Of a DNA stretch of 24,717 bases, positions 2,733-22,989 are shown piece by piece. The notes beneath the pieces were generated by a model that did not search any database, was not told the DNA's origin, and saw only the letters and a program-made list of their open reading frames with translations. Source of the DNA: a virus; IMG/VR virus record IMGVR_UViG_3300010885_018102, positions 1 to 24,717 of that record. One strand, given 5' to 3'. The translations under genes were made by a program, and so were the position numbers. The stretch's first letter is position 1; each line of letters opens with the position of its first letter.

Positions 2733-2926
2733 GACTTGATCTCCGGTTCGTGTGCCTGGCCCACCCTCACGCGCAGCGGCTCCAGCAGCTCGCGCACCTG
2801 ATCCACAGCCTTCGTGCCCGAGATGCGGCGGACGTGCCACCGACGCACCACCTCGGCTACCTGCTGCATCAGCTCCTCCGACTCGGCCCGCTTGGCGGTC
2901 CACGGCGGCACGTCATGCCACGCCAT
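2729..2926 (-). CDS. Small hypothetical protein (65 aa) between recombinase and SSB-like genes
   Basis: The ATG at 2926 has an excellent AGGAGGTGACC site and overlaps the end of the ATPase gene by 14 bases; its own stop overlaps the start of the SSB-like gene. The sequence begins MAWHDVPPWTAKRAESEELM and is predicted to be mostly helical, with basic residues (VVRRWHVRRISGTK) followed by a leucine-rich helix. It has no recognised domain. The position between a Sak4-like ATPase and an SSB-like protein suggests an accessory role in DNA recombination; that is inference from context only. Confidence 0.7.
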   Translation of the reverse strand: MAWHDVPPWTAKRAESEELMQQVAEVVRRWHVRRISGTKAVDQVRELLEPLRVRVGQAHEPEIKS

Positions 2927-4110: not shown

Positions 4111-4464
4111 TCAGGCCAGCGATCCGTCGCCGACCTCGCGTCCTTGCGTATCGCCATCGACGAAGAGGCTCTCGCCACGCTCGGCGCGGCGACACATCTC
4201 CTCGACCTTGTCTTGCGTGCCCGGCGCCGCCGTCGTCGGCTCGGCCGCGTCCATGGTCGCGCCGATCTCGTCGCGCACCTCGATCAGCTCGTCGATCGTC
4301 ACGGTGAGCGCGTCGTAGAGCAGCGTGCGGTCGCCGCGAGCCGCGCGGGCCTGGTACGTCTCGCCAGCGTTCGACTGGCCACCGGCCTTCGATGGATCGC
4401 CGTACAGCCGCACAATGGCGCACAGATGCGCGTGGCAGCGAGCGACGCGGTGCAGCCACCTCAC
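4111..4464 (-). CDS. Hypothetical protein (about 117 aa), start uncertain
   Basis: The convincing part is the C-terminal two thirds: RLYGDPSKAGGQSNAGETYQ, then a helical LLYDALTVTIDELIEVRDEI segment, then an acidic helix with EEMCRRAERGE. The GTG at 4464 overlaps the stop of the HTH gene in GTGA fashion and is the best start by context, but no clear Shine-Dalgarno site precedes it. Translation may rely on coupling to the upstream gene. No domain is recognised. It lies between the HTH gene and csrA in the leftward early operon, with a 65-base gap before csrA. Confidence 0.5.
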   Translation of the reverse strand: MRWLHRVARCHAHLCAIVRLYGDPSKAGGQSNAGETYQARAARGDRTLLYDALTVTIDELIEVRDEIGATMDAAEPTTAAPGTQDKVEEMCRRAERGESLFVDGDTQGREVGDGSLA

Positions 4465-4766
4465 CAGAAGCTGGCAAGCCCGAGATCGGATGCGCGTACG
4501 ACGGTTACGTTCGCTCGCCGCAGCCCGGCTCTCCTGCGTCGCTCCTGCTCGGACCAGCGCGACTGCACTTCCAACGACCGCTGGCGTATGGTCGCCTCGT
4601 CCGGGTCCTTGGGGCCGGGACGTGGGTCCGTCCAGCCGAGCTCCCGTAGCCGGCGCGAGATCGACGAGGTAGTCGACGCCGTAATTTCGGCGATGCGCTC
4701 CAAGGGCATATCCGCCGCCCACTCGAGGAGCTGCGTATCCGTGACGAGCGCGAATGCTCGGGGCAT
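4461..4766 (-). CDS. Helix-turn-helix protein, probable early regulator (101 aa)
   Basis: The ATG at 4766 has CCGGAG seven bases upstream. Residues about 8-40 read TDTQLLEWAADMPLERIAEI then TASTTSSISRRLRELGW, an HTH with a serine-rich recognition helix similar to sigma-region-4 or resolvase-type helices. A basic C-terminal half (VQSRWSEQERRRRAGLRRAN) suggests nucleic-acid contact. Third codon positions are strongly G/C, unlike the competing frame starting at 4785. It is the first gene after the probable promoter and may play the part of a Cro-like or activator protein; this is inferred from position. Alternatively it could be a small terminase-like HTH protein. Confidence 0.65.
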   Translation of the reverse strand: MPRAFALVTDTQLLEWAADMPLERIAEITASTTSSISRRLRELGWTDPRPGPKDPDEATIRQRSLEVQSRWSEQERRRRAGLRRANVTVVRASDLGLASFW

Positions 4767-4829
4767 CGGCGACTCCGGGCGGCATGGCGTATCCCTCCGC
4801 CGCACGCCGTCGTGACGTGACGGGGGCGG

Positions 4830-4859
4830 ATGCTACGGGGACGCAATAACTGCCGTCAA
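4830..4859 (-). promoter_or_regulatory. Possible sigma-70-type promoter for the leftward early operon
   Basis: On the minus strand TTGACG (4859-4854) is followed after 18 bases by TAGCAT (4835-4830), a fair match to -35 and -10 hexamers. It lies after the repressor's putative terminator and about 60 bases before the first early gene. This would put transcription start near 4823. The spacer is one base longer than ideal and only the -35 matches well. Confidence 0.35.
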
Positions 4860-4889
4860 GAGGAGTTTGTACGTCGCCGTAAAAGCCGG

Positions 4890-4914
4890 AAAACCACGTA
4901 AAACGACTACGTGG
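4890..4914 (-). terminator. Putative intrinsic terminator after the repressor gene
   Basis: On the minus strand CCACGTA (4914-4908) and TACGTGG (4900-4894) form a perfect 7-bp stem with a 7-base loop, followed by four T (4893-4890). The stop codon of the repressor lies inside the hairpin. It could stop repressor transcripts before the early operon. The short stem and short T run make it weak; the same inverted repeat could instead be an operator. Confidence 0.45.
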
Positions 4915-5158
4915 TCAGCTGCTCGACCTTGATGTCGAGGGTGCTAGCCAGTGCTAGCACGGTCCCGATCTTGGGACTCTTGATTCGACCAGTAAGGATG
5001 CGGTTCAGCGTCGGCACCGTGATGCCGGCCCGGTCAGCTACCTGGTCGATGTGCAGCCCTCGCTTGGCTGCCCACTGCTCGATCCGCTGACCGATCAGGC
5101 ACCGCTTAAGGACACGTGGCCGGCCGCCTGCGTGACGTTTGTGGCTTGCGGTCGCCAT
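4907..5158 (-). CDS. XRE-type helix-turn-helix repressor (83 aa)
   Basis: The ATG at 5158 has GGGAGGAG seven bases upstream; the longer open frame to 5392 has no comparable site. A basic N-terminal tail with an AT-hook-like AGGRPR motif (residues 10-15) precedes a classic lambda-repressor-like domain: GQRIEQWAAKRGLHIDQVAD, RAGITVPTLNRILTGRI and a final LALASTLDIKVEQL helix. This is the DNA-binding half of a C1/Cro-type protein without a peptidase or dimerisation domain. It is transcribed away from the integrase and in the same direction as the early genes. It is probably the lysogeny regulator, but its operators are not known. Confidence 0.75.
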   Translation of the reverse strand: MATASHKRHAGGRPRVLKRCLIGQRIEQWAAKRGLHIDQVADRAGITVPTLNRILTGRIKSPKIGTVLALASTLDIKVEQLTT

Positions 5159-5397
5159 TCCGCGGCTCCTCCCTGAGCGCTTTGCCTTTTCGGGCGTAGA
5201 TCCCGATGGTTCCAGTGGGCCTACCGGGGACAGGGTTGCGATCCCGTCGGGATTGCAACGTTTGAAAGTGGCGGGGACAGGATGAAACCCCGCAAAACCG
5301 GCCGACCCGCACAGCCCGCACGACCGGACTCCCTTCGACGGACGGAGCGCACCCGCACGGACGCGTGACCTATCCCTGAGTAGGAGGATCACGCACC
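5159..5397. promoter_or_regulatory. Divergent control region between repressor and integrase
   Basis: This 239-base non-coding stretch must hold the leftward repressor promoter and the rightward integrase promoter, but no strong -35/-10 pair is evident. It contains a 25-bp imperfect inverted repeat (5235-5259), a second inverted repeat GCGGGG/CCCCGC (5271-5276 and 5288-5293) and two copies of CGGGGACAGG 47 bases apart (5226-5235 and 5273-5282). Clustered repeats next to an integrase fit an attachment or arm-site region or operators. AGGAGG at about 5381 serves the integrase. Confidence 0.4.
5235..5259. repeat. 25-bp inverted repeat upstream of integrase
   Basis: GTTGCGATCCC and GGGATTGCAAC are mirror arms of 11 bases with one mismatch and a 3-base centre. 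The left arm GTTGCGATCCC recurs exactly at 6329-6339, just past the integrase, so the integrase gene is bracketed by this 11-mer. Possible roles are an integrase or repressor binding site or part of attP. Confidence 0.45.
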
Positions 5398-6300
5398 ATG
5401 ACTCTCGACGCGTTTCTCGACACCGTGTACGTGCCGCTGCGACTGCGCGGTAGGTCGCGCGAAAGTGTCCGCCTGCTGCGGCACGCCATCACGCAGTTTT
5501 CCAAGTGGCTCGGACGAGCCGCGCTCCTCGAAGACCTCGAGGACCTGACCGTCAGCCAGTTCCTCGCAGTGCGCGGCCAGCGGCTTTCGCCCAACAGCGT
5601 GGCCCGCGAGCGGTCAGGGCTCTTGGCCCTGTGGAACCTCGCCCAAGGCCGCGGCCTCGTGAAGCTCCGCCCGTCGGTCTCCCCCGAGCTGGTGCCGCAG
5701 TCGACTCCGCGAGCGTTTACGACGGACGAGCTGGCCCGGCTCGCCGACGCCGGCCGGCAGGCGAGCGGCTGGGTCGGGCCGGTGCCTGCGTCAGTGTTTT
5801 TCCCAGCGCTGATCGCCGTGGCACTGGAGACCGGCGAGCGGATCAACGCGATCCTGTCGACGCCCCGCATGTGCTGGCGTCGGCCGACGCTCACCGTGCC
5901 GGCCTACGTCCGTAAGGGCGGACGCCAGGAGCGTGTTTACGAGCTGTCGCCCGAGGCCTCGGACCTGGTCGACCGCGTAGCGGCCCATACGGGGCCGACC
6001 GTGTTCTGGTGGGTTTCGTCTGGAACAGCGCTTCGCAAACGCTGGAAGACCATCACGAGGCGCGCCGGCCTCGGGGACGGCCGCGAGGTCCAATTTCATG
6101 CCCTGAGACGCTCAACCGCCTCACATCTGGCGGCCGCTGGACTCGATGCGACGGCATTCCTCGGACATTCGTCCGATCGTATCACTCGGCGTAGCTACCT
6201 AGATCCTCGCGTGGTCGACGCTCATCGCCCCAAGGCGTGGCAGGCCATGCCGCGAATCTTTAAGCCCGATGACCACGAGCCGCCGGCTCGCACCGCGTGA
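5398..6300 (+). CDS. int: Tyrosine recombinase, phage integrase (300 aa)
   Basis: The protein catalyses site-specific recombination between phage and host attachment sites. An N-terminal SAM-like DNA-binding domain (about residues 1-95, with SVRLLRHAITQFSKWLG and RLSPNSVARERSGLLALW) precedes the catalytic domain. Catalytic residues are in place: R148 in ETGERINA, K173 in VRKGGRQ, H234 and R237 in HALRRST, H257 in FLGHSS and the nucleophile Y267 in RRSYLDPR. The length is normal for a small integrase. ATG 5398 is preceded by AGGAGG about ten bases away. It is the first gene of the only rightward block and is followed by an excisionase-like gene. The attachment site itself is not identified. 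Confidence 0.92.
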   Translation: MTLDAFLDTVYVPLRLRGRSRESVRLLRHAITQFSKWLGRAALLEDLEDLTVSQFLAVRGQRLSPNSVARERSGLLALWNLAQGRGLVKLRPSVSPELVPQSTPRAFTTDELARLADAGRQASGWVGPVPASVFFPALIAVALETGERINAILSTPRMCWRRPTLTVPAYVRKGGRQERVYELSPEASDLVDRVAAHTGPTVFWWVSSGTALRKRWKTITRRAGLGDGREVQFHALRRSTASHLAAAGLDATAFLGHSSDRITRRSYLDPRVVDAHRPKAWQAMPRIFKPDDHEPPARTA

Positions 6301-6313
6301 GCCAGTAGCGTCC

Positions 6314-6339
6314 CCGGACGGGTCCGGAGTTGCGATCCC
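6314..6339. repeat. Inverted repeat and 11-mer repeat after integrase
   Basis: CCGGAC (6314-6319) and GTCCGG (6322-6327) form a perfect 6-bp inverted repeat with a 2-base centre. Two bases further, 6329-6339 is an exact copy of the 11-mer GTTGCGATCCC found upstream of the integrase at 5235-5245. There is no T run, so a terminator is unlikely. It may be a protein-binding or attachment-related site. Confidence 0.35.
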
Positions 6340-6386
6340 CCGCGTCCATCCTTGCGGGTTGTGCCGGCCAAGGCCAGACTGCCGCC

Positions 6387-6566
6387 ATGCGGATCGACAC
6401 CGACGACTACGTCACGTGCACCCACGCCGCCGAGCTGGCCGGCGTGTCGAGGCAGTGGATGCGGCGGCTGGCGGAGGACGGGAAAGTGCGGGCGGTCGTG
6501 ATCGACGGCTTGCTGTTCGTGCACCGAGCCGACGCCCTCAAGTTGTCACGTGACAACGGCCGATGA
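6387..6566 (+). CDS. Excisionase-like helix-turn-helix protein (59 aa)
   Basis: The frame from ATG 6387 encodes a compact winged-HTH: YVTCTHAAELAGVSRQWMRR, then LAEDGKVRAVVIDGLLFVHR, then ADALKLSRDN. This is the HTH_17/MerR-like excisionase pattern, in which a recognition helix is followed by a two-stranded wing. Excisionases bind DNA near attP and direct the integrase towards excision. The position right behind the integrase on the same strand fits. The ribosome site is weak (CAAGG about 10 bases upstream). A 16-bp palindrome overlaps its last codons, possibly an autoregulatory site. It could also be a general small regulator. Confidence 0.7.
   Translation: MRIDTDDYVTCTHAAELAGVSRQWMRRLAEDGKVRAVVIDGLLFVHRADALKLSRDNGR
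6542..6557. promoter_or_regulatory. Operator-like palindrome 1
   Basis: GTTGTCACGTGACAAC is a perfect 16-bp palindrome that overlaps the 3' end of the excisionase-like gene. A near-identical site lies 29 bases downstream (6571-6586). Tandem identical dyads spaced by about three helical turns are typical of dimeric repressor operators. Confidence 0.55.
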
Positions 6567-6568
6567 GT

Positions 6569-6588
6569 GTGTTGTCACCTGACAACAC
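6569..6588. promoter_or_regulatory. Operator-like palindrome 2
   Basis: GTGTTGTCACCTGACAACAC has perfect 9-bp arms around a CC centre. Its core GTTGTCACCTGACAAC (6571-6586) differs from palindrome 1 in one central base. It lies 20 bases before the start codon of the 23-aa gene, where a bound protein, or an 8-bp RNA hairpin with an ACCU loop, could control that gene. There is no T run after it, so it is not a standard terminator. Confidence 0.55.
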
Positions 6589-6608
6589 CACAGCCAAGGA
6601 GGGCTACC

Positions 6609-6680
6609 ATGTCGATCACAGTCTGGCTCGAGCTGTTGCTGCTCGTCGCTCGCATCCTGTCGGCCGGCGGCGCGTTCTAG
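6609..6680 (+). CDS. 23-residue hydrophobic miniprotein
   Basis: ATG 6609 follows a strong AAGGAGGGCTACC site. The peptide begins MSITVWLELLLLVARILSA and ends GGAF before TAG. Nearly the whole chain is one hydrophobic helix, long enough to cross or lie in a membrane. Its TAG stop shares three of its four bases with the stop of the convergent gene (CTAG at 6677-6680). The consensus ribosome site, the closeness to palindrome 2 and the exact abutment to the facing gene support a real gene. Possible roles include a small toxin, a holin-like peptide or a membrane modulator; none can be shown. Confidence 0.5.
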   Translation: MSITVWLELLLLVARILSAGGAF

Positions 6681-7081
6681 GCGGCCCGCGTCCTCACCTG
6701 GAACGCCAGCCGGCGGATGCCGATCCGGTGCTCGGTGCTTGCAAACCACAGGTTCGCCACCTCGACGACGCAGGCCAGCACGATCAGGTTGACGGCCTCA
6801 CCCTGCTCCTCGGTCTCGCACCGCAGCTCGAGCACCTCGCGGACCTTGGCGGAGATGACGCCGATGGCATCTAGCGCCTCGCGGCCGGCGCCGGCCGCCT
6901 CCGCCCGCCTGGCCAGGTCCGCCATGTGGCGCTCGGGCCAGTGCACGAGCGTGGCGTCGACGATCGCGGCCACCTCGTCGGGCAGCTGCAGGGCAGGGCC
7001 GCCGACGCGGTGCCGTACCTCCGCCCGCAGCCACGTCAGGTCCATGCCGGCGACGTCGCCCACGGGAGCCTCCAGCATCAT
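6677..7081 (-). CDS. Hypothetical helical protein (134 aa)
   Basis: ATG 7081 overlaps the stop of the upstream gene (ATGA); a second ATG follows directly. The protein is almost entirely predicted helical: MDLTWLRAEVRHRVGGPALQ, then HMADLARRAEAAGAGREALD, then a CVVEVANLWFASTEHRIGIR region. It is the last gene of the leftward late transcript and its stop overlaps the stop of the rightward 23-aa gene. No domain is recognised. No transcription terminator is visible between the convergent genes. Confidence 0.7.
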   Translation of the reverse strand: MMLEAPVGDVAGMDLTWLRAEVRHRVGGPALQLPDEVAAIVDATLVHWPERHMADLARRAEAAGAGREALDAIGVISAKVREVLELRCETEEQGEAVNLIVLACVVEVANLWFASTEHRIGIRRLAFQVRTRAA

Positions 7082-9238: not shown

Positions 9239-9609
9239 TCAGCGGCCCTCGTGAGCGGCAGGACGATCTCGATGGCACCGCTGGCGATCGCCAGCACGAG
9301 CGCCCGGATGGCGGGTCGGGCGAGGATCCAGACCGGCCAGACGACGACCGGGACTGCCTTGTCCGCGAGCTGGTCGAAGAGCGCGGCCACGGCCTCGAGC
9401 ACGAGCGCCTTTTTCTCGGAGCCGCTCATGCCGAGCACGGCGTCGAGGGTCTCGACCGACAGCCGCAGAAGTGCGATCAGCAGCTCGCCAAACTCCGCCC
9501 ACGTAATGCCGCCTGCGGCTTTGGCCTTGGCGACCTCGAGGAACGCGGCGACCTGTGCCAGCAGCGTGGCCTCGCCTCCTGCCGCCATCACCGGTGCGTC
9601 GGAGATCAT
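9235..9609 (-). CDS. Holin-like hydrophobic protein (124 aa)
   Basis: ATG 9609 has GGAGTAAAGG upstream and overlaps the preceding stop. The sequence is rich in long hydrophobic or amphipathic helices: ATLLAQVAAFLEVAKAKAAG, LLIALLRLSVETLDAVLGM, and a C-terminal AVPVVVWPVWILARPAIRAL region followed by VLAIASGAIEIVLPL. Size and helix pattern are compatible with a holin that opens the inner membrane at lysis, and its neighbours are a membrane protein and a peptidase. No specific holin family is recognised, and a membrane-associated structural role cannot be excluded. Confidence 0.5.
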   Translation of the reverse strand: MISDAPVMAAGGEATLLAQVAAFLEVAKAKAAGGITWAEFGELLIALLRLSVETLDAVLGMSGSEKKALVLEAVAALFDQLADKAVPVVVWPVWILARPAIRALVLAIASGAIEIVLPLTRAAE

Positions 9610-10070
9610 GCCTTTACTCCAGCGAGGACGATCTCGTACGTGGCGGACGCCGATCCGCCTTCGATGACGATGTTGCCGGCGTTAAACCACTTGTTGGTGG
9701 GCGCTGTGCCGGCGGTCCACAAAAACACCGCACCGGGCGGCAGCCCGTAGTTAGCGCCGGCGATGTCGTAGGTCAGCGTGACCGTCGCCGACTGGTTGCG
9801 GACGTAGATCAGCTTGACGCTCGCCAGATTGAGCGTGCCGGCCGTCCCGAAGACCGACAGCGGCAGCGCCGTCGTGTTAATCGTGTCGGTGGCCGAGATG
9901 CCGACGGTGCGCACGTCCCGCCAGTAGCCGTTGACCTGGCCGGCGCCGGTGCCGTCGGCGAGCGACAGCGCCTGTAGCACCGACGCGGAGTCGGTGACGG
10001 TCGTCAGCGTCAGGTCGTCGACCCATGACGCCGCGAGCCGCAACTGCCCGGTGATCGTGAGCGTAGGCAT
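9606..10070 (-). CDS. Beta-rich phage structural protein, paralog of next gene (154 aa)
   Basis: ATG 10070 shares TGATG with the upstream stop. The protein begins MPTLTITGQLRLAASW and is mostly short strands: VKLIYVRNQSATVTLTYDIA, then WFNAGNIVIEGGSASATYEI. The order of motifs (an ADGTG turn, a repeated R-x-V/I-x-I strand, a strand with VRN, then a final hydrophobic strand) runs parallel to that of the 167-aa neighbour, so the two look like diverged duplicates. Such small jelly-roll proteins often decorate phage heads, tails or fibres. The position among late genes supports a virion role. Family unknown. Confidence 0.6.
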   Translation of the reverse strand: MPTLTITGQLRLAASWVDDLTLTTVTDSASVLQALSLADGTGAGQVNGYWRDVRTVGISATDTINTTALPLSVFGTAGTLNLASVKLIYVRNQSATVTLTYDIAGANYGLPPGAVFLWTAGTAPTNKWFNAGNIVIEGGSASATYEIVLAGVKA

Positions 10071-10573
10071 CAGGTGGGCGCCACCGAGGTGCCGACGAGC
10101 CAGAGCGAGTAGCTCACGGCGGCGGCGTTGGGGTTGGCGATGTAGAGCAGCTGGTTGGACGAAGTGACCGGCCAGGCGTTGATGTGGTTGATCGTGAACC
10201 ACTCGGAGCCGGGACCGATCTCGACGGCATATGCCACGGTTGGCCGGCCCGGGTCGCAGCCGACGCGAATCTTGCGACCGCTGGTCGTCTCGTTGTTGAC
10301 CACGCGGACCAGCCGTAGCTGACGGAAGTCGTAGGCGACCGTCACGCCGAGCGTGGTCTGCGTGATCGCTCGGACGTCGATCTGCTCGAGCGTGTTGGCG
10401 GCAATCGTGCGGTTCGCTGCGTAGACCAGGTCCGCCTGCCGGCTGCCGCTGCCGTCAGTGATCGCGTACGTGTTCTGGTCGGTCTGCGCCGACACGGTCG
10501 TGCCGATGTCCTGGTCGACCGTGCGGTCCCAGATCATCACGGTCCGCATCGTCGCGGTCAGTGTGTCAGCCAT
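10070..10573 (-). CDS. Beta-rich phage structural protein (167 aa)
   Basis: The protein begins MADTLTATMRTVMIWDRTVD. It contains a DGSGSRQADLVYAANRTIAA segment, a YDFRQLRLVRVVNNET strand pair and a C-terminal SNQLLYIANPNAAAVSYSLW strand pair, a pattern common in small phage tail or decoration proteins. It overlaps the upstream gene by 8 bases and shares TGATG with the downstream gene. The ribosome site is weak (GGGGC), so coupling may matter. It looks like a distant duplicate of the 154-aa protein. Its exact place in the virion is not known. Confidence 0.65.
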   Translation of the reverse strand: MADTLTATMRTVMIWDRTVDQDIGTTVSAQTDQNTYAITDGSGSRQADLVYAANRTIAANTLEQIDVRAITQTTLGVTVAYDFRQLRLVRVVNNETTSGRKIRVGCDPGRPTVAYAVEIGPGSEWFTINHINAWPVTSSNQLLYIANPNAAAVSYSLWLVGTSVAPT

Positions 10574-15575: not shown

Positions 15576-17630
15576 TCAGGTCCCCACCAGTGCCGGGTCT
15601 TCGTCCGTGTTGTCCGCGATCCGCTCGAGCAGGTCGACCTGCTGCTGTGCCAGCGACTTTGCAAAACCAAGGCCGCTGGCCGCCGCCGCGGAGAACGTGC
15701 CGACCACCTCGCCTCGCTCCATGCCGGCGGCAGCGGCGCCTGCACCTTCGCGGATGCGTTGCTCGTTGCCGCCGGCGGCTCGCTCGGCTGCACGCTCCGC
15801 TGACGCTGCCAACGACTCCGCCAGTGCGGCCTCGGCGTCCTGTGTGGCACGGCGACGGTCGGCAGCTCGCTGAGCGTTGGCGTCGAGGCGGCCTTGAGCG
15901 GTCGCGTCGGCGTTGGCGTTCATGGCGTCGATATTGCGTTGCGACTCGGCGGCAGTCTGTGCGTTCTCCTGTGCTGCCGTCTGCGTGCGTCCGGCGATAC
16001 CAGGGCGAGCCTGTGCGCGTGCCCTCGACCGCGCTGACATCTCGTCGTTGACCTTGGCGTTTTCTTTGGCAAGGTCGTAGCCGCGGGTGATGAAAGACTG
16101 CACATAGTTCCAAGACTTGCGGACGGCGGCCTCCATAGTGTCCCAGGCGGCGAGGATTCCGTTAATGATGTTGTCGAACGCACCCTGCAGGAGCGCGCCG
16201 AACGTGTTGGCACCCTGCGTGACGTACGACCACATGCCCTCCCACGTCGTGGCCACGGACGTGCCCAGATACGTGAACGTGTTCTGGAACCCCGCCACCC
16301 ACGAGTCGACCTGCCCCATGAGGGACTCGACGCCACGCGCCCAGCCAGCCTGCAGCCCGAGCCACAGGATGTCCATGGCACCAGATAAGTTGCCGGCGGC
16401 CAGTTCCTGGTACACGCCGTCGAACGTAGCCGTGGCGGTAGCGCCCAAGTCACGCAGCACGCCCATGGCATTGGACCCGGCGTCGACGAACGCTCCACCG
16501 ATAGCCGACGCGATCTGGCCGAAGCCGCCGGCTGCGTAGATAGCCGCCCCCGCCACGGCGCCCAATAGGCCTACGGCGATCGCCAGCGGGGCGTTGGCGG
16601 CCACCCAGGCGGCTAGGCTGGTCGCCGCCGCCACGGTCGTTTTGACGCCGTACAGCACCGCACCGGCCGCTGCCGAGACGAACGACGCCGCGAGCTGATA
16701 GGCGAGCTTGACGGTCGAGACGAGCGGAGACACAAGCGATGCGACGCCTGTAGAAAGTGTTTTGACTGCGAAGCCGGCTGCAGTAAGTGCAGCACCGGCC
16801 GCGACCATAGCCGCGCCGACCGCCAACGCCTGCTGAACAAAGACTTTGTTTTCGGAGATGTACTTCGACACCTGGCCGACAATCAGGGCCACCGACGACG
16901 CGAGGCCGGACATGGCTGGTGCCACAGCCGCACCGACCGTAAGCGTCACGGCCTTTAGCGCCGTCATTAGCTCGCCGATCGAGTCGTTGAGTCGTGCCGC
17001 GGAGTCGGCCGTCTCCTGATCCATCACGATGCCGAGCTGCTCGGCCTGCTTCATGAGCGCCCGGATGCCGCCGGCGCCGTCCTCGAGCATGCGCAGGAGC
17101 GCGGCGCCAGCACTTCCGAAGACGGCCATGGCCAGCGCCGCCCGCTCGCCAGGATCCTGCACCCCAGCCAGTGCATCCGACAGCGCGAGAAACTGGTCCT
17201 CCGGAGACATCTGCCGTAGCTCGTTGACGTCCACGCCCAGCCGCTCAAATGCCTTCGCGGCAGCCTTGCCGCCTTGCGCAGCCGTGTCCAGCGTCCGCTG
17301 CATTGTGCGGATGCCTTTTTCCAAGGTGCCGACGTCGGTGCCCGACTGCCCGGCCGCGAAACCGAGCGCGGACACGGCCTCCGTGGACATGCCGGTGCGC
17401 GCGGCCATCTTCTGCACCGCGTCACCAACCTCGGAGAATGCAGCCGCCGCGCCAGCGATCGGTGCCGTGATCGCGCTGCCGGCGGCCATCAGCCGGCTGC
17501 CGATGGACATCATCGACGAGCCGAGCTGCCCCATTCGCTTGTTGATCGTGCCGAGGGCCGCAAACAGCTTCTTCGGGTCCGCGCCGATCTCGACGTAGAC
17601 CTTGCCCTGGCGGACTGCGTTGGCACTCAT
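15576..17630 (-). CDS. Tail tape measure protein (684 aa)
   Basis: This is the longest gene in the window, placed behind the chaperone pair as in siphophages. ATG 17630 has GAGGTG upstream and overlaps the end of the chaperone extension by 4 bases. Residues about 1-220 contain a helical N-terminal region with IGADPKKLFAALGTINKRMG and a TGMSTEAVSALGFAAGQSGT segment typical of tape measure proteins; about 222-370 is strongly hydrophobic with many alanines; about 530-640 is a coiled, Ala/Gln/Arg-rich part. It sets tail length and is ejected with the DNA. At about 0.15 nm per residue the tail would be near 100 nm, a rough inference. Confidence 0.92.
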   Translation of the reverse strand: MSANAVRQGKVYVEIGADPKKLFAALGTINKRMGQLGSSMMSIGSRLMAAGSAITAPIAGAAAAFSEVGDAVQKMAARTGMSTEAVSALGFAAGQSGTDVGTLEKGIRTMQRTLDTAAQGGKAAAKAFERLGVDVNELRQMSPEDQFLALSDALAGVQDPGERAALAMAVFGSAGAALLRMLEDGAGGIRALMKQAEQLGIVMDQETADSAARLNDSIGELMTALKAVTLTVGAAVAPAMSGLASSVALIVGQVSKYISENKVFVQQALAVGAAMVAAGAALTAAGFAVKTLSTGVASLVSPLVSTVKLAYQLAASFVSAAAGAVLYGVKTTVAAATSLAAWVAANAPLAIAVGLLGAVAGAAIYAAGGFGQIASAIGGAFVDAGSNAMGVLRDLGATATATFDGVYQELAAGNLSGAMDILWLGLQAGWARGVESLMGQVDSWVAGFQNTFTYLGTSVATTWEGMWSYVTQGANTFGALLQGAFDNIINGILAAWDTMEAAVRKSWNYVQSFITRGYDLAKENAKVNDEMSARSRARAQARPGIAGRTQTAAQENAQTAAESQRNIDAMNANADATAQGRLDANAQRAADRRRATQDAEAALAESLAASAERAAERAAGGNEQRIREGAGAAAAGMERGEVVGTFSAAAASGLGFAKSLAQQQVDLLERIADNTDEDPALVGT

Positions 17631-18031
17631 GTTTTCACCTCATGCCAATTTGGCCCGAGCAGCTTGCGGATCTCGTCGGGCGTCGCTTGCCGCGGCGCTG
17701 CCTTTTTCGCGAACGGGTTGAACTCGATCGGCTTGGCTTGCGGCTGGCCTTTGCTGCGGTGCAGGTTGGCCTGCTGACTCATGAGCCACGCGACCCGCCA
17801 CCACTCCTGCTCTAGACGAGCGTCGCGAGCGGCGAAGAGTCCACGGATGGTCCATTCATCTGGGTTGACTCCGAGGATTCCTGCGGCCTCGTAGATGGCG
17901 TCCCAGATTGTGCGAGCAGGGACTCGACCGTCGTCTGTTGCAGTTGCGCCTCCGCCCGATTGGCCAGCTCGGCCTGCAGCTCGTCCATGCGCTCGACGAG
18001 CTGCTTGATCATGCGGCGAAGGCGGAGGGGG
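17627..18031 (-). CDS. Tail chaperone T extension, made by -1 frameshift from G (134 codons)
   Basis: A reading frame open from 18031 to a TGA at 17627 overlaps the end of the 192-aa chaperone gene in the -1 frame and has no proper start of its own. After the slip it reads a proline/alanine/glycine-rich linker (PPPPSPHDQAA...), then RTIWDAIYEAAGILGVNPDE, WTIRGLFAARDARLEQEWWR and VAWLMSQQANLHRSKG, ending FNPFAKKAAPRQATPDEIRK. The W...AW..M..QAN and FNPF strings match T domains of tail assembly chaperones. The fusion product would be 254 aa (120 + 134). Its stop overlaps the tape measure start. It binds the tape measure protein during tail assembly. Confidence 0.8.
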   Translation of the reverse strand, partial: PPPPSPHDQAARRAHGRAAGRAGQSGGGATATDDGRVPARTIWDAIYEAAGILGVNPDEWTIRGLFAARDARLEQEWWRVAWLMSQQANLHRSKGQPQAKPIEFNPFAKKAAPRQATPDEIRKLLGPNWHEVKT

Positions 18032-18390
18032 AAAAAATCGACCAGCTCCTCCTCGAGCGCACGCTGCGCCGCCTCGAGCGAGTCACCGCGAAGCGATTCC
18101 AGGAACTGCTCCTTCGTCAGCTGACGCTCGTCGACCTGTCGGCACAGGATCGCGTAGAGCACCTCGCCGATCGTCGTGTAGCGTGAGCGGATCACCTCGA
18201 GGGCGCGTCCGATCGTCGAGACGTCGATCAGGTCAAATGGGACCGACCGGTCGACCTTGCGGATGGACCCGTCCGGCTGCTCTTCGTCCTCTTGGATGTC
18301 GATGCGCACGAGGTCCTTGACCCTCGCGGCCGCGCCAACGGTCATGACGAGACGCCACGGGCGGCCCTCGTCGTCTTTGAACTCGCGCAT
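17812..18390 (-). CDS. Tail assembly chaperone G (192 aa)
   Basis: ATG 18390 has AGGAGC just upstream. The protein begins MREFKDDEGRPWRLVMTVGA and goes on with an AARVKDLVRIDIQEDEEQPD segment and helices (SLEAAQRALEEELVDFFPLR), the usual layout of gpG-like chaperones located between tail tube and tape measure genes. Residues 118-120 (D-F-F) are encoded by the slip site T TTT TTC. After this point the 0-frame carries a serine- and threonine-rich tail (STRPQESSESTQ) to its stop at 17812. Together with the fusion form it guides tape measure folding and tube assembly. Confidence 0.8.
   Translation of the reverse strand: MREFKDDEGRPWRLVMTVGAAARVKDLVRIDIQEDEEQPDGSIRKVDRSVPFDLIDVSTIGRALEVIRSRYTTIGEVLYAILCRQVDERQLTKEQFLESLRGDSLEAAQRALEEELVDFFPLRLRRMIKQLVERMDELQAELANRAEAQLQQTTVESLLAQSGTPSTRPQESSESTQMNGPSVDSSPLATLV
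18031..18037 (-). promoter_or_regulatory. Predicted -1 ribosomal frameshift site T TTT TTC
   Basis: The heptamer fits the X XXY YYZ rule in the frame of the chaperone gene (codons 118-120, GAT TTT TTC). Both tRNAs can re-pair on TTT TTT after slipping back one base. It is followed by a C-rich stretch, and the -1 frame then stays open for 134 codons to a T-domain. No Shine-Dalgarno-like stimulator or pseudoknot was worked out. Confidence 0.65.
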
Positions 18391-18391
18391 G

Positions 18392-18745
18392 TCAGCTCCT
18401 GAGTCCCGACCTGGTCAACGCACACTCGACGGAGTAACTGGTGGCACCGTCGAGCGGGTTTGTCTCGCTGATGCTGGTCACCACGGCATTGAATGACCAT
18501 CCGCCGGTGCCACCGCTGACGGCCACGAGCGTGCCGTTTGTCAGCTTGGTCAGGTCGAGGTCGGCGGAGTCGTTAATCTCGAACGACACGGTGGCGGCCC
18601 AGCCTGTCGAATAGACGGCCTGCTCGCGCGACCCATACTCCTCGATCTCAATCGTGCGGGCACTGCCGCTCCACGTGACGTTTCGCACGCTCGCGATGCT
18701 GCCGCCGACAGTCAGCGTCGCATTCTTGCCGAGCGTGATCGCCAC
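18392..18745 (-). CDS. Tail tube-like protein, copy 3 (117 aa)
   Basis: GTG 18745 has GGAGG eleven bases upstream. The protein begins MAITLGKNATLTVGGSIASV, has RTIEIEEYGSREQAVYSTG and ends LDGATSYSVECALTRSGLRS. The MA-I/V-TLG start, a region about an altered x-YGS/FGD turn and a DGAxxYxVxxxxR end are shared with the two genes upstream, so all three are paralogs. The beta-strand-rich, about 110-residue size is that of single-domain tail tube proteins, which stack as hexamer rings. It directly precedes the chaperone gene (TGA and ATG one base apart). Confidence 0.65.
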   Translation of the reverse strand: MAITLGKNATLTVGGSIASVRNVTWSGSARTIEIEEYGSREQAVYSTGWAATVSFEINDSADLDLTKLTNGTLVAVSGGTGGWSFNAVVTSISETNPLDGATSYSVECALTRSGLRS

Positions 18746-18748
18746 GAG

Positions 18749-19072
18749 TCAGATGCCTCCCCGACGCGCGGTGATCGTGTACGTCACGGCGCCGTCGATG
18801 GACACGTTCTCGGTGACACCCATAACCACGAAGTTGCTCGTGGCGGTATTGCTCACGAGCTGCGCCATGACGCCCGTGGCGTCGTGGCACTCGATCTCCC
18901 AGGTCTGCGACTTGAATCCCGTGTCGAACGCCCGATAGCCGATTGTGCCGGTGCCGACGTTGCTGCGGTTGCTGACGTCGACGACCTCGGCCTCCTCGGT
19001 GTACGTGGCCGAGATGACGTCGGTACCGAACGGCGGGGCGCTCGCCGCCTTGAAGCCAAGGGTGATCGCCAT
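18749..19072 (-). CDS. Tail tube-like protein, copy 2 (107 aa)
   Basis: ATG 19072 has CCGGAG about seven bases before it. Protein begins MAITLGFKAASAPPFGTDVI and has YTEEAEVVDVSNRSNVGTGT in the middle and VSIDGAVTYTITARRGGI at the end. The start and end motifs match the other two copies, with differences in the centre, where a shared WEIECHDATGVMAQL segment corresponds to VEQTIEVECVDAPGKD of copy 1. Copies 1 and 2 are equal in length. One of the three is probably the major tail tube subunit; the others may be minor subunits or decoration. Confidence 0.65.
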   Translation of the reverse strand: MAITLGFKAASAPPFGTDVISATYTEEAEVVDVSNRSNVGTGTIGYRAFDTGFKSQTWEIECHDATGVMAQLVSNTATSNFVVMGVTENVSIDGAVTYTITARRGGI

Positions 19073-19084
19073 AGTGGTCTCCGG

Positions 19085-19408
19085 TCAGGTCTGGGTCTTG
19101 AATCGCTGGGCGCTGACGGTGTACGTGATGATGCCGTCGATTGGCTGCGACTGGGCCACGTTGGTCACGACAAACTCGATGGTGTTGCCGGTCGTCGTGC
19201 CTGTGAGCGTGAACGTCTGACCGACGTCCTTGCCTGGAGCGTCGACGCACTCCACCTCGATGGTCTGTTCGACCATGGCCTTGACGAAGGTCCGAAACGT
19301 GTCACCGAACTTGGTGACGTCGACCTCGTTTGCGGTGTTGTTGACCGTGATCGACCGGGCGTTTGACAGGCCCGAGATCGTGACGTCCTTGCCGAGGGTG
19401 ACGGCCAT
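19085..19408 (-). CDS. Tail tube-like protein, copy 1 (107 aa)
   Basis: The first of three paralogous genes; ATG 19408 has AGGAGC upstream. The protein begins MAVTLGKDVTISGLSNARSI, has NTANEVDVTKFGDTFRTFVK and TIEVECVDAPGKDVGQTFTL, and ends DGIITYTVSAQRFKTQT. Two further copies follow at once. The DVTKFGD motif is typical of phage tail tube folds near a strand-loop that contacts neighbours. A 70-base gap separates it from the upstream gp10-like gene and holds no recognisable signal apart from its own ribosome site. Confidence 0.65.
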   Translation of the reverse strand: MAVTLGKDVTISGLSNARSITVNNTANEVDVTKFGDTFRTFVKAMVEQTIEVECVDAPGKDVGQTFTLTGTTTGNTIEFVVTNVAQSQPIDGIITYTVSAQRFKTQT

Positions 19409-19478: not shown

Positions 19479-20216
19479 TTAGGCCGCGCGGATGGTGTCG
19501 CGGAACCGCGTAAAAATGCGGGCCACGACCTTCTGGACACCGGCGGCGCCCTGCATGAACGGCCGCTTGGGATAGCTCACTGACCGCGTGATCGTGGTCT
19601 TATCCCAGTTGCTCGCACCCCGGAATCCCTTGTGAGTCCACAGGATCGCGCCATAGTCGTAGTCGCCGCTGGAACGTCTCGGGATCGGCTTGCCGGCATC
19701 CCGCGCATCCTTCGCACGCCTGGCGGCGCCAACGCCGATCCGCCACGCCGTCAGCGTCAGGGACCCGCCAAACTCGTGCAGCCGGCCAAGCCAGTCGGAC
19801 TTAAGTGTGCCGATGACGACGCTGCGTGTAGTCCCGTCCCAGTAGTACATGATGTCGTTGTAGAGCCAGCGCTTTGGCGCCCACGACTTTGGCGGCTTGC
19901 CGGCTGGCCGCGGCTTGCCGCTGCCAAGCATCGTGAGGTCTCGGTACAGGCCGTTCATGAACTCGACGACTGCCCCGGCCTTGACCTCACGCTGCCCGGC
20001 CTTGGTCCGCTTGGGTGCGTTTTGACCGATGCCTTTTTTCGACGCCTGGCGGATGTCCATGCCGGCCTTTTTGAGAGCCTCGTAGTTAGCTCGCTCAAGC
20101 AGCCGGTGCACCTTGGACCGGTCGAAAAACTGCCCCTTGACCCGCGCGGTGATCGCCCGCTGGCTCGCGGTCGCGGCCGACACTGGCCGGCGGTTTCCGC
20201 CACGTCTGCCGGCCAT
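19479..20216 (-). CDS. Tail completion-like protein, HK97 gp10 type (245 aa)
   Basis: ATG 20216 shares TGATG with the upstream stop; the ribosome site is weak (AGGAC). The N-terminus is basic (AGRRGGNRRPVSAATASQRA). Signature parts are the DWLGRLHEFGGSLTLTAWRI block and the YPKRPFMQGAAGVQKVVARI block near the C-terminus; LHEFGG and PxRPFM are hallmarks of gp10-like and minor tail Z-like proteins that join or complete the head-tail connector. Between them lies a Lys/Arg-rich insertion. The position just before the tail tube genes and after the terminator-like gene fits. Confidence 0.75.
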   Translation of the reverse strand: MAGRRGGNRRPVSAATASQRAITARVKGQFFDRSKVHRLLERANYEALKKAGMDIRQASKKGIGQNAPKRTKAGQREVKAGAVVEFMNGLYRDLTMLGSGKPRPAGKPPKSWAPKRWLYNDIMYYWDGTTRSVVIGTLKSDWLGRLHEFGGSLTLTAWRIGVGAARRAKDARDAGKPIPRRSSGDYDYGAILWTHKGFRGASNWDKTTITRSVSYPKRPFMQGAAGVQKVVARIFTRFRDTIRAA

Positions 20217-20662
20217 CAGCGGAAAGTCCTGTAGGTGGCCGTGATCACAGCCCGCCAGACGTTGCGGTCGTGCAGTGCGTCGTCCGGGTTTACCTCGATC
20301 GCGACCTCGACAGGCGTGGTCACGCCGCTTGGCCAGACGACCGCCTGGTCCCAGCTGTGTGCCCGGATCGCGTCCGCGATCTCCTCGGCCAGGTCCAGCA
20401 TGTCGTCGGCCATCTCGTCCGACGGCGTGTGCCGGCCGACGAAGACGGTCGCCTGGTAGTCGTACTGGTGATGCGTGCGGTTGACTCGCTCGATCGTCAA
20501 CGTGCCCGGCATCACCGCGATCACCGGGTCGACCATCTCCTCGATGGTGTAGTCCGGCCAGTTGACCCGCTCGACGGCCGGCTGCGTCGCCACCGACGTG
20601 AACGTCTTGGCGTCGAGTCCGTCGGCAAGAGCGTCGGCAATCTCACGCAGCGTGCTGCTCAT
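20216..20662 (-). CDS. Tail terminator-like protein (148 aa)
   Basis: ATG 20662 lies inside the end of the glycosyltransferase gene (20-base overlap). The protein begins MSSTLREIADALADGLDAKT, has strands VDPVIAVMPGTLTIERVN and YDYQATVFVGRHTPSDEMAD, a helix DDMLDLAEEIADAIRAHSWD, and ends with NVWRAVITATYRTFR. This alternation of a helix pair and four strands is that of tail terminator or gpU-like proteins that cap the tail tube. Its place right before the gp10-like gene supports the call; no specific signature is present. Confidence 0.65.
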   Translation of the reverse strand: MSSTLREIADALADGLDAKTFTSVATQPAVERVNWPDYTIEEMVDPVIAVMPGTLTIERVNRTHHQYDYQATVFVGRHTPSDEMADDMLDLAEEIADAIRAHSWDQAVVWPSGVTTPVEVAIEVNPDDALHDRNVWRAVITATYRTFR

Positions 20663-21689
20663 GGGCCTCGATCTGCTCCACGTTCTTGACCAGCCGCGGG
20701 TCGTCCGGGCATCGTCGCACAGCCTCGCGGGCGTACCGCAGGGCTTGTGGGTGCTTGCCTAGATTCCAGGCAGCCACGGCAGCCAGGTCGTAGGCCTTGG
20801 TCACAGCGTCCGGGTCGGTGGCGTGCGTCGACTCACCAGTGGCCTGCATGGCCGCCTCGGCGAACGTCAGGCACTCCTGCCACTCCTGCCGCTGGTAGTG
20901 CACCCACGCGAGTTGCTGCCACGCGTCGGGCTCCGCCTTCGCCTCGTAGGCTGCCCGGTGCAGATGCCGCTCGTCTTGCGTCAGCCGGTACAGGGCGCGG
21001 TATGCGTACGACCGCTCCGTAGGCGTGCCCGGCAGGCCGAGGTAGTGTGCGAACGTCGCCGCGGCGGCCGGGTGCCCGACCCACTCCTGCTCGCGGGCGA
21101 GGTACCAGTGAGCGCGGGCGTCGTGCGGCGCCTCGCGGACCGCCACCTCAAGCAGCTCGAGGTCCGTCTTGTGCCGCTTGCCAGGCGTCCGGTGGTGATG
21201 GATCTCCAGACCGTCGGCAACGGCCTGCACCTTCTCGCCTGACCAGCACACGAGCCCCTCGTGCGTCGGTGCCGACCACCGGAACCCGCGGCGGGCGTGG
21301 ACGCGGTCCGAGAGGAACACCAGCCCAGGCACGCCTGGCGACTTCCACGACCACACGTAACGGTACCGCAGGTTGTTGACGTTGCCGGTCCACGCCTGCT
21401 CGATCGCCGCACGCCACCCGGGCTGCAGCCGCTCGTCGAGATCCAGCCGCACGCACACGTCCACGTCGTCCGGCAGGTGGTACAGCGACAGGTTGTGCGC
21501 GTCGTCCCACCGCCACGGGATCACGTTGCCCGTCATCACCGTGATGCCGCAGGACCGCAGCCGCTCGGGCGTCGAGTCGGTCGACCCGGTGTCCGTGACG
21601 ATCACGACGTCGGCGCCGTCGGTCGACTCCGCCCAGTCGATCGCGTGGGACTCCTCGTTCTTGGCGAGCGCGTACACGCCGATGCGCAT
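20643..21689 (-). CDS. GT2-family glycosyltransferase with helical-repeat C-terminus (348 aa)
   Basis: ATG 21689 has GCGGAG upstream and starts two bases after the methyltransferase stop. An N-terminal GT-A fold shows MRIGVYALAKNEESHAIDWA (donor-binding start), VVIVTDTGSTDST, a DxD-type VRLDLDERLQPGW (D83/D85) that would bind metal and nucleotide sugar, and SAPTHEGLV near the acceptor side. From about residue 185 on there are helix pairs like TPR repeats (ARAHWYLAREQEWVGHPAAA, DAWQQLAWVHYQRQEWQECL), which may hold a partner or acceptor. It probably adds a sugar to a phage or host glycan. It is the last of a coupled five-gene cassette. Confidence 0.82.
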   Translation of the reverse strand: MRIGVYALAKNEESHAIDWAESTDGADVVIVTDTGSTDSTPERLRSCGITVMTGNVIPWRWDDAHNLSLYHLPDDVDVCVRLDLDERLQPGWRAAIEQAWTGNVNNLRYRYVWSWKSPGVPGLVFLSDRVHARRGFRWSAPTHEGLVCWSGEKVQAVADGLEIHHHRTPGKRHKTDLELLEVAVREAPHDARAHWYLAREQEWVGHPAAAATFAHYLGLPGTPTERSYAYRALYRLTQDERHLHRAAYEAKAEPDAWQQLAWVHYQRQEWQECLTFAEAAMQATGESTHATDPDAVTKAYDLAAVAAWNLGKHPQALRYAREAVRRCPDDPRLVKNVEQIEAHEQHAA

Positions 21690-21691
21690 CT

Positions 21692-22303
21692 TCAGCTCCG
21701 CTCGTAGATGATCAGAACCTCGGCGGTAGAGCCGCCGCAGTGCGGGCACGCCGGCGGGCACCCAAGCCCGCCCAGGCCGCGGCCGGTCGCTACGATCCGT
21801 AGCGACACGTCGTCGGGCACCGTGACCTGCGACGTGATCAGCTCGTGTTGACACGGCGGACGGATGTCCTCGATGACGTACACGCCGCCAGGCGCCAGAT
21901 ACGGCAGCAGCGTAGTGGCGGTGACCGCTTGGTGCTCCGCCTCATGCGACCCGTCGTCGACGATCAGGTCGAACATCCCGCCGCCGGCTTGACCAACCGC
22001 GGCCCGCAGCGCGTTGGGCTGCCCTTGGTCCGCCCAGTGGCAGTGGATGCGGCCCTCGTCAAACAGGTGCGGGACGTGGATGTCGAAGCCGATGATCGTG
22101 GCGTTGGGGAAGTAGTCAGCCCACATTCGCAGGGAGCGGCCGTAGTGCACACCCACCTCGAGCACCCGCCACACGTCCTGCCGGCGGTATCCGAAAAGCT
22201 GGTGGTACACCGGTGTGTACTCGTGGCAGAACTGGCCGGCGATCGTGTGCCAGCCGCCCTTGTCGGTGCCGTGGTGCCGGGCGAGCCCGCAGAGCGGTGT
22301 CAT
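21692..22303 (-). CDS. Class I SAM-dependent methyltransferase (203 aa)
   Basis: ATG 22303 overlaps the stop of the preceding gene (ATGA), with GGAG upstream. A Rossmann fold is seen: HGTDKGGWHTIAGQF at the start, motif I VLEVGVHYGRSLRMWADYFP (around residue 48), an acidic FDIH after strand 2, and DLIVDDGSHEAEHQ at 112-125, as in sugar O-methyltransferases of the macrocin or rhamnosyl type. The C-terminus has CPPACPHCGG, a possible zinc pair. The position between glycosyltransferase-like genes suggests methylation of a sugar, though other small molecules are possible. Confidence 0.8.
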   Translation of the reverse strand: MTPLCGLARHHGTDKGGWHTIAGQFCHEYTPVYHQLFGYRRQDVWRVLEVGVHYGRSLRMWADYFPNATIIGFDIHVPHLFDEGRIHCHWADQGQPNALRAAVGQAGGGMFDLIVDDGSHEAEHQAVTATTLLPYLAPGGVYVIEDIRPPCQHELITSQVTVPDDVSLRIVATGRGLGGLGCPPACPHCGGSTAEVLIIYERS

Positions 22304-22989
22304 GACGGGCGGTACTCCAGGAACTGCGACGCGTCGTGATCGGCGCGGTACCACCGCACAGGCAGGCAGTCGAGGATCTCGACGTAGGCCATCGTGTTCA
22401 TGTCCCACGACAGCCTTCCTGTGAGCCTGGCACGCAGGCTGGCGACCGTTTTGACGGCGTCGGCTACCTGCGGCACAAGTTGCCTTGGACACACCCAGCA
22501 CGACCCACAGAACCGCCAGTGCGCCTCGCTGTCGTTGATGAGCCCCTTTTGCCAGCAGCCCGGCAGTGTGACCGCGTGGCATGGGCCGGTGTGCAACAGG
22601 TCGACGAATTGCCGCAGCACGTCCTCGGTCACGTTTCGCTGTTTCAGGCACGTGTATTCGACCCACGCGAACACGTCCACGTCCGGGTGGGCGATCGCTG
22701 CCAGTCGCATCCACTCGTACCGCTGCAGCAGGACGATGTTGGACAGCGTCATGTGGCCGGGCTCGTGAAACCGGTCGGACGGCGGATTGGCACACGACGG
22801 CATTAGGAGCGGGTTGTCCGTGAGGAGGTCGTACGCCCAGCAGTCCTCGATCGGCCACCCGTCGAACACGTGCAGGTGATCACCGATGGCGGCTTTCATG
22901 CGGTCGCCGTACGTTTGGCACTGGTCAGCCGTCAGATGGCGAGCCGGGAACGCGTTGGGCACAAACCCGCTGACGCACATGGCTTTCAT
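22300..22989 (-). CDS. Glycosyltransferase-like protein, paralog A (229 aa)
   Basis: ATG 22989 overlaps the stop of the upstream paralog. The protein begins MKAMCVSGFVPNAFPARHLT, has a DVDVFAWVEYTCLKQRNVTE core (a strand with an acidic end, like a nucleotide-sugar site), a cysteine-bearing RFCGSCWVCPRQLVPQVADA part, and SWDMNTMAYVEILDCLPVRW ending YRADHD. The next protein has parallel segments in the same order, so the two are diverged duplicates. The layout resembles HtrL/YibB-type or GT-A transferases, where a late ....NT..Y.E... and YRADHD helix face the sugar donor. The family call is not firm. Confidence 0.55.
   Translation of the reverse strand: MKAMCVSGFVPNAFPARHLTADQCQTYGDRMKAAIGDHLHVFDGWPIEDCWAYDLLTDNPLLMPSCANPPSDRFHEPGHMTLSNIVLLQRYEWMRLAAIAHPDVDVFAWVEYTCLKQRNVTEDVLRQFVDLLHTGPCHAVTLPGCWQKGLINDSEAHWRFCGSCWVCPRQLVPQVADAVKTVASLRARLTGRLSWDMNTMAYVEILDCLPVRWYRADHDASQFLEYRPS

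Follow-up and report, generated by a model that had tools for sequence, protein, structure and literature searches.

Three conserved tail-tube-like paralogs in a viral lineage, two of which evolve as a coupled pair

The tail tube is a textbook homopolymer. Why, then, would a viral tail module carry three adjacent tube-like genes? We addressed this question in a virus record from IMG/VR, 24,717 bases long (hereafter the window, meaning this whole stretch of DNA), in which a sequence-only reading had pointed to a tandem triplet of related genes, here called T1, T2 and T3. A phage group with a fixed multi-paralog tube would show a symmetric ring becoming heteromeric, and such a tube could explain how sixfold tube symmetry is reconciled with a tape measure that is threefold.

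The triplet had been described as adjacent genes of 117, 107 and 107 amino acids, and open reading frames (ORFs) with exactly those boundaries are present, all on the minus strand (Table 1). Read 5′ to 3′ on that strand, the order is U, Z, T1, T2, T3, G, the short ORF g and the tape measure gene (TMP), with gaps of 12 nt between T1 and T2 and 3 nt between T2 and T3. The triplet occupies the position of a tube gene, with terminator and completion genes on one side and chaperone and tape measure genes on the other. U also matches phrog_1072, a family of unknown function (E 0.00075); Z matched no family among the PHROG and Pfam profiles; and the PF10145 match of the tape measure protein falls just under the profile cut-off. 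G is named for its position and frame overlap, because no profile match to it carries weight. The frame of g stays open between 18082 and 17627 and encodes a well-formed protein sequence, making this −1-frame stretch a possible frameshift extension of G like lambda GT; the lambda G/GT chaperone pair is the precedent for such an overlap. No slippery heptamer was found at the junction of G and the −1 frame, and the sequences TTTTTTC (18037) and TTTCCCC (18034) are well upstream.

Table 1. Tail-module features of the window, and the major-tail genes of Microbacterium phage DizzyRudy (coordinates of its own record)
Feature	Position	Strand	Basis or remark
U, tail terminator-like, 148 aa	20216..20662	-	phrog_179 tail terminator, E 0.0041 (weak)
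Z, 245 aa, between U and T1	19479..20216	-	tail-completion-like, by position only
T1, tail-tube paralog 1, 107 aa	19085..19408	-	homolog of T2 and T3
T2, tail-tube paralog 2, 107 aa	18749..19072	-	AlphaFold2 model; GTA, monocin and R4C fold matches
T3, tail-tube paralog 3, 117 aa, GTG start	18392..18745	-	phrog_1407; Foldseek tail tube matches
G, tail assembly chaperone-like, 192 aa	17812..18390	-	position and frame overlap; conserved family
−1-frame open stretch over the 3′ end of G, into g	17627..18082	-	open stop to stop; reads IWDAIYEAAGILGVNPDEW...
g, short ORF	17627-17782	-	
Tape measure protein (TMP), 684 aa	15576..17630	-	phrog_8462, E 2e-33; PF10145, E 7.4e-7
DizzyRudy major-tail genes	2783-3643, 4259-6019, 6036-6803		one with a long C-terminal extension

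The minus strand of the window also encodes, immediately upstream of the tail genes, a glycosyltransferase with TPR repeats (20643-21854; phrog_13126, E 9.5e-76) and a methyltransferase (21692-22558; PF13578). A glycosyltransferase of the same family also adjoins the tail module of one relative (G001). Elsewhere in the window, two neighbouring minus-strand ORFs (9606-10202 and 10070-10573) both match phrog_22694 (E 6.4e-6 and 4.6e-13) and may form another tandem pair, whose function is unknown.

The similarity among T1, T2 and T3 is homology, beyond chance. The common start motif had been correctly described (MAVTLG, MAITLG and (V)AITLG); the motif DG-x-x-(T/S)-Y, which had been placed at the end of the proteins, is present in all three (DGIITY, DGAVTY and DGATSY) but stops 9-13 residues short of the C-terminus. 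By BLASTP, T1 aligns with T2 at 38% identity over 65 residues (E 7e-11) and with T3 at 25% over 106 (E 6e-12), and the direct match of T2 with T3 is weak (E 0.002). Profile–profile comparison with HHalign, using 33 of 43 distinct triples per family, joined all three pairs (T1–T2, E 1.6e-18; T1–T3, 6.7e-24; T2–T3, 1.9e-14). All three are under purifying selection, with dN/dS over 89 pairs of 0.13 for T1, 0.14 for T2 and 0.20 for T3. Given these ratios, and because every relative whose DNA extends far enough has one of each, we conclude that these are three functional genes.

The description of the products as tube-like stands directly for T3, less firmly for T2, and for T1 through homology. T3 matches the PHROG family phrog_1407 ('major tail protein', E 2.3e-5), T1 marginally matches phrog_10528 (major tail, E 0.022), T2 has no PHROG major-tail match, and none of the three has a Pfam match above the cut-off. 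Sequence searches against solved structures returned nothing meaningful. An AlphaFold2 model of T3 (55 sequences, pLDDT 75.9, pTM 0.62) clearly matches the tail-tube fold: Foldseek found 23 PDB chains at E≤1e-3, headed by the monocin tail tube (E 3.4e-6) and continuing with the phage 812 neck, Sf11 tail and R4C tube, then GTA and lambda gpV. The leading matches are tail tubes or tube-fold rings (monocin 8qhs, R4C 8gtb, GTA 6tba and gpV 7t2e), and tube-fold baseplate chains occur among the matches too; VIA-align gave Z 9.2 for both Sf11 (rmsd 2.9 over 112 residues) and GTA (2.7 over 110). The model of T2 (52 sequences, pLDDT 75.9, pTM 0.63, with low confidence at residues 1-9 and ~30-50) taken alone weakly suggests the same fold. 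Foldseek again placed the GTA, monocin and R4C tubes first, though with E values no better than 1.1e-3, and its highest VIA-align score, with lambda gpV (Z 7.6, rmsd 5.9), stands beside one of 6.9 with an unrelated type IV pilus machine chain. T1 probably shares the fold, as a homolog of T2 and T3. We considered and rejected T1 as a counterpart of the lambda head–tail attachment protein gpFII: PF05354 scored 16.9 bits against a cut-off of 26, and head–tail joining already has a separate gene in a 43-kb relative (G007; PF25138, E 9.8e-29).

Other genes of that relative encode a terminase of the gpA type, a portal of the lambda family, a cement protein (PF09956) and a capsid protein whose N-terminus resembles a protease (PF04586, just under the cut-off). 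The large terminase subunit (TerL) was found with PF03354 in none of 18 records but was recovered with PHROG profiles and PF20454. We set aside a contractile tail: the sheath family PF04984 was found in 0 of the 18 records at E≤1, although these may be incomplete and the profile matched 7 of 14 controls, 3 of them over its cut-off.

How constant is the triplet? A first search gave 71 loci, 72 with the window, and T1, T2 and T3 occur in that order in 69 of the 72, the other 3 running off the end of the DNA. Follow-up searches with the T3 and T2 profiles, retaining the best 80 of 371 and the best 80 of 298 matches, brought the loci with all three genes to at least 192, representing 92 distinct protein triples. 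A search blind to the tube genes, using the chaperone G alone and retaining the best 80 of 458 confirmed relatives, found the complete ordered triplet in 65 of 65 loci with over 1,250 nt between the start of G and the end of the locus; among the other 15, six have all three genes and nine run off the end. Because these searches retain the nearest relatives, more distant ones are under-sampled.

In the final count we scanned 316 sources (315 loci and the window, leaving out the small window copies L001-L003), and 302 contained a match. One of each gene was present in 261, always as separate ORFs; these comprise 123 distinct DNA triplets, many of the loci being overlapping pieces of the same contigs. 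A further 29 loci lack one or two genes at a DNA edge, as judged from coordinates, and 12 belong to a two-gene lineage described below. Of the 14 sources with no match, 11 are pieces of long records; the others are L075, L217, which is another phage, and L229, which is cut. L075, a Prevotella MAG and the single genome-contig hit, was rejected as a chance match, its ORF lying antisense to a 530-aa ORF. Scanned over whole records, the T1 profile found exactly three copies in 13 of 14 long relatives (35-45 kb). It had no match in the fourteenth (G014, of the two-gene lineage) despite two diverged copies there, so more diverged copies could escape detection elsewhere too. Among isolated phages, no relative was found in 50,697 records (tblastn; E 0.01 for T1 and T3, 0.1 for T2).

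Two kinds of variation were seen within the group. Seven loci (L024, L030, L034, L047, L048, L050 and L051) carry a divergent type of T3, 40-44% identical to that of the window where compared, while their T1 and T2 share 65-76% identity with those of the window; T3 seems to have been exchanged independently. In eight loci (L030, L031, L034, L037, L040, L043, L047 and L050), the ORF matching U has 300-403 residues rather than ~148, reflecting either an extended start or a fused domain.

We then asked which of the genes work together. Across 60 non-redundant loci, of the 75 with U and G, protein distances correlate most closely for T1–T2 (r 0.87), followed by T3–G (0.71), T1–T3 (0.53) and T2–T3 (0.51). 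Given U and G, the partial correlation is 0.77 for T1–T2 and 0.14 for T2–T3. The bootstrap 95% range of the difference between the T1–T2 and T2–T3 coefficients is 0.24-0.55, and five other selections of loci gave 0.83-0.88 and 0.22-0.61, respectively. Because T1–T2 and T2–T3 are equally close neighbours in the genome, the comparison has a built-in control for linkage. We separated amino-acid from silent change by the Nei–Gojobori method in 762 pairs from 68 loci with dS <1.2 in all five genes; the pairs are non-independent, dS is near saturation, and the correlations report coupling, not contact. For dS they are much alike: 0.78 for T1–T2, 0.80 for both T2–T3 and T1–T3, 0.83 for T3–G, 0.73 and 0.78 for T1 and T2 with G, and 0.70, 0.74 and 0.71 for T1, T2 and T3 with U. 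For dN, by contrast, T1–T2 reaches 0.94, compared with 0.61 for T2–T3 and 0.70 for T1–T3; T3–G stands at 0.84, with T1 and T2 at 0.72 and 0.64 with G; and the values with U are 0.77, 0.77 and 0.58 for T1, T2 and T3. Given that the silent correlations are alike and the amino-acid correlations are not, linkage alone does not explain the coupling of T1 with T2. The coupling of these two genes is thus one of their proteins, whereas T3 goes more with the chaperone G.

A sister lineage offers a second view of this division. Twelve loci on 11 contigs (L216 and L218-L228) have exactly two such genes, Ta with 121-134 residues and Tb with 135-151, in the order U–Z–Ta–Tb–G–TMP, the same place as the three-gene set; a further locus, L229, is cut. 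Profile scores put T3 closest to Tb in all 11 contigs, and in 10 of the 11 the best score for Ta is with T1 or T2. In a tree of the 43 distinct triples, the labels T1, T2 and T3 require two changes, the minimum, and in a tree of 85 rows, to which the divergent rows and the two-gene lineage were added, the five labels require four, again the minimum. The split of T1, T2 and T3 is therefore older than the divergence of the three-gene group. In the larger tree T1 joins T3, not T2 (support 95/92), so the partners are not each other's closest kin. That tree places Ta and Tb outside, Tb on a very long branch, and the pairing of Tb with T3 and of Ta with T1/T2 is seen in the profile scores without confirmation by the tree. 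The original description of a triplication is right in that there are three paralogs and too simple in that the sister lineage has exactly two genes, which implies more than one duplication step. Tree and profile scores disagree on the order of the duplications, and any order proposed would be provisional.

As a guide to expression we compared codon use in 60 loci (fewer for some neighbours; 41 for TMP), leaving out the last 12 codons of each gene because the Shine–Dalgarno sequence of G lies inside the 3′ end of T3 and had inflated the T3 count. In the control genes of the long relatives, rare Arg/Leu codons make up 0.08 in capsid, 0.03 in cement (six genomes), 0.12 in portal (six) and 0.18 in TerL (seven), and the corresponding values for ACA are 0.01, 0.00, 0.05 and 0.09. 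In the tail module the rare Arg and Leu fractions are 0.124 for T1, 0.136 for T2, 0.199 for T3, 0.152 for G, 0.198 for TMP, 0.218 for Z and 0.257 for U, with overlapping ranges for T1/T2 and T3. The share of ACA among Thr codons is 0.044, 0.045, 0.101, 0.069, 0.092, 0.105 and 0.065 in the same order, and here the 95% ranges of T1 and T2 lie below that of T3 without overlap. Paired by locus, rare codons are lower in T1/T2 than in T3 in 31 loci and higher in 20 (Wilcoxon p 0.005, from loci that are not independent). In the seven long relatives alone the rare fractions are 0.17, 0.19 and 0.21 for T1, T2 and T3, counts too small to separate the genes. The split is sharper in the two-gene lineage, with 2 of 32 rare codons in Ta and 30 of 92 in Tb (5 loci each). 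T1 and T2 are less codon-optimised than the capsid genes, and an NNY-C index was dropped because its control failed (TerL 0.83, capsid 0.84). Codon use thus hints, with a moderate signal, that T1 and T2 may be abundant proteins and T3 not. Shine–Dalgarno strength does not favour abundant T1 and T2: the medians are −6.6 for T1, −6.5 for T2 and −7.4 for T3, and the strongest of the three sites in the window is that of T3 (−11.0, against −6.6 each for T1 and T2).

The reading that we favour, with a little less than even weight, is that T1 and T2 jointly make up a shaft of two components and that T3 supplies a special ring present in few copies. T1, T2 and T3 would be three ancient paralogs with the tail-tube (gpV/Hcp) fold, of which T1 and T2 would be obligate partners that jointly form the abundant shaft around the tape measure protein. 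In its simplest form this shaft would consist of mixed hexameric rings with alternating subunits, (T1–T2)x3, threefold like the T5 tube; as a close alternative, T1 rings and T2 rings may be interleaved. T3 would be a low-copy tube-fold protein forming a specialised ring on the chaperone and tape-measure (tip) side, where it would start the tube. In the sister lineage, Ta alone may make the shaft, with Tb in the role of T3, and in the three-gene lineage the shaft would have become common to two co-evolving genes. Of the three fates first suggested for the extra genes, the co-evolution and codon data favour a mixed tube for T1 and T2 and a specialised ring for T3; decoration fares worst, because all three are bare tube domains of 107-117 residues and the 43-kb relative has the separate cement gene noted above.

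The main rival exchanges these roles. T3 could be the shaft, given that its matches to tube profiles and folds are the clearest of the three and that its gene immediately precedes that of the chaperone, the place of the tube gene V in lambda. T3 would then be the ordinary counterpart of gpV, and T1 and T2 a specialised pair stacked as one ring or a few at the end nearest the head, by U. The strong T3 ribosome-binding site fits this arrangement, as does the dN correlation of T3 with G, which is expected of the client of a chaperone; U follows T1 and T2 more than T3 in dN, and gene order would mirror tail order. Against it, the codon use of T3 resembles that of TMP and TerL, and that of Tb does so even more, whereas T1, T2 and Ta lean towards the capsid genes; dN/dS is also higher for T3 (0.20 versus 0.13-0.14). 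On balance we regard a T3 shaft as unlikely, though deserving serious weight.

A different reading, compatible with the others, ascribes the T1–T2 correlation to shared recombination history, with T1–T2 and T3–G moving as separate blocks. The divergent T3 of one clade (L024, L030, L034, L047 and others), in which T1 and T2 are not similarly divergent, is what such exchange would produce. Yet the dS correlation is flat across the block boundary (0.78 versus 0.80) and the dN correlation is not (0.94 versus 0.61), and the result holds when ten loci of the divergent T3 type are left out, so we consider this explanation improbable. Ranking below it are three homomeric segments, that is, one main tube protein and two single-ring caps as in T4: such rings (gp48 and gp54 at the base of the tube, gp3 at its end) are known (PMC8718954), and tube-fold baseplate chains are among the T3 matches, but this arrangement predicts neither the tight coupling of T1 and T2 nor the similar codon use of the two genes. 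Least probable is an obligate three-component tube with all paralogs in every ring, for example (T1–T2–T3)x2, which would suit the invariant 1:1:1 gene content, tight operon spacing and similar Shine–Dalgarno strengths but not the different codon use of T3 or the decoupling of its amino-acid change from that of T1 and T2 at equal synonymous linkage.

How does the triplet compare with known tubes? The tubes of lambda (gpV), SPP1 (gp17.1), GTA, R4C (TTP) and monocin (MttP) are each described as the product of one gene, and the initial statement that most siphophages have one tail tube gene applies to the best-studied phages but not to actinophage isolates with two or three major-tail genes. T3, and weakly T2, resemble siphophage and GTA tubes in fold, in position before the chaperone and tape measure genes, and in being small bare domains. 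Their 107-117 residues compare with 130-161 for the GTA, R4C, Sf11 and monocin chains and 153-245 for gpV, although short chains are not new, since phage Mu chains of 115-117 residues also match T3. Extra tube-fold proteins that form single special rings, as proposed for T3, have counterparts in the tube-base rings gp48 and gp54 of T4 and in Afp1 and Afp5 of contractile injection systems; those are contractile systems, whereas no sheath family was found in the 18 records here.

Tubes built from more than one kind of subunit or domain are also documented. In the available parts of PMC9394477 and PMC4759559, SPP1 is the sole case cited of multiple tube proteins. There, one gene yields gp17.1 and a frameshift-extended form, gp17.1*, in a 3:1 ratio, and the extension is dispensable (PMC8718954); our proposal likewise has two tube proteins per tail, but from independent genes. 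T5 pb6 contains two tube domains fused in one chain by duplication and fusion (PMC5717097), so that non-identical domains alternate in a threefold ring; the phiCbK tube is likewise described as threefold. By contrast, the tube domains here lie on separate genes in all 261 complete loci. A reported parallel to the proposed rings is the Hcp2–Hcp3 heterohexamer of the Bacteroides type VI secretion system (PDB 9vne; Zheng et al. 2026, cited in PMC13323088), in which paralogous tube-fold subunits mix in one ring. This structure is among the VIA-align rows of both models (Z 7.4 for T3, 6.2 for T2); it belongs to a secretion system in which mixing is solved, whereas mixing in the phage tube is our proposal, and no sequence relation has been shown. 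In the open-licence PMC literature searched, largely as excerpts, we found no demonstration that separate paralogs mix in the tail tube of a phage.

Several phages have more than one annotated major-tail gene. Damascus, a relative of DizzyRudy in cluster EL reported to have siphoviral morphology, has two, and multiple genes also occur in clusters AM, AU, AW, BI and CC (PMC11080557); Gordonia cluster DJ phages have two (PMC10652937); and sepunaviruses have two annotated major tail proteins, mentioned without detail (PMC13152194). A phage with two annotated 'tail tube' genes (MW202897, L217) was rejected as a precedent: the second of them, P0010, gave 1.7 against the T1 profile and 0.14 against T3, no match, and its first 'tail tube' gene matched the T profiles marginally (0.022-0.2). 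In the same record, 6154-6534 is annotated 'phage tail tube protein', has no tube-profile match, sits at the chaperone position and is possibly misnamed. Microbacterium phage DizzyRudy (MK814756, L319) has three annotated major-tail genes (gp17, gp19 and gp20; Table 1), and these are paralogs, with 42-51% identity (E 4e-55 to 2e-67) and all in phrog_2645. Like T1–T3, they lie between the tail terminator and tape measure genes. Unlike T1–T3, they belong to another tube family, have 255-586 residues, and are interrupted by gp18, which splits gp17 from gp19. The T1, T2 and T3 profiles show no relation to gp17–gp20 (best E 0.19), and phrog_2645 is absent from the PHROG matches of the window's proteins at E≤1.

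The fold, its role and the presence of several major-tail genes in one phage are thus known already. New here are an unrelated set of bare tube domains whose order and number are fixed across 123 distinct triplets, its two-gene sister state, and the evidence that members of the set differ in partnership. That separate, about equally abundant and obligately co-evolving paralogs, T1 and T2, form a hetero-oligomeric shaft, with the third as a dedicated initiation ring, is a possibility that we hold tentatively, as plausible yet short of probable. If this were true, the two-gene relatives would keep an earlier stage, laying out the path from a one- to a two-component shaft in living genomes, and the same trend would have arisen independently in the actinophages with their unrelated sets. 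The question is made testable by the two-gene lineage and by cultured actinophages that have multiple major-tail genes of their own, and DizzyRudy provides a cultured system in which to ask what multiple tube paralogs do.
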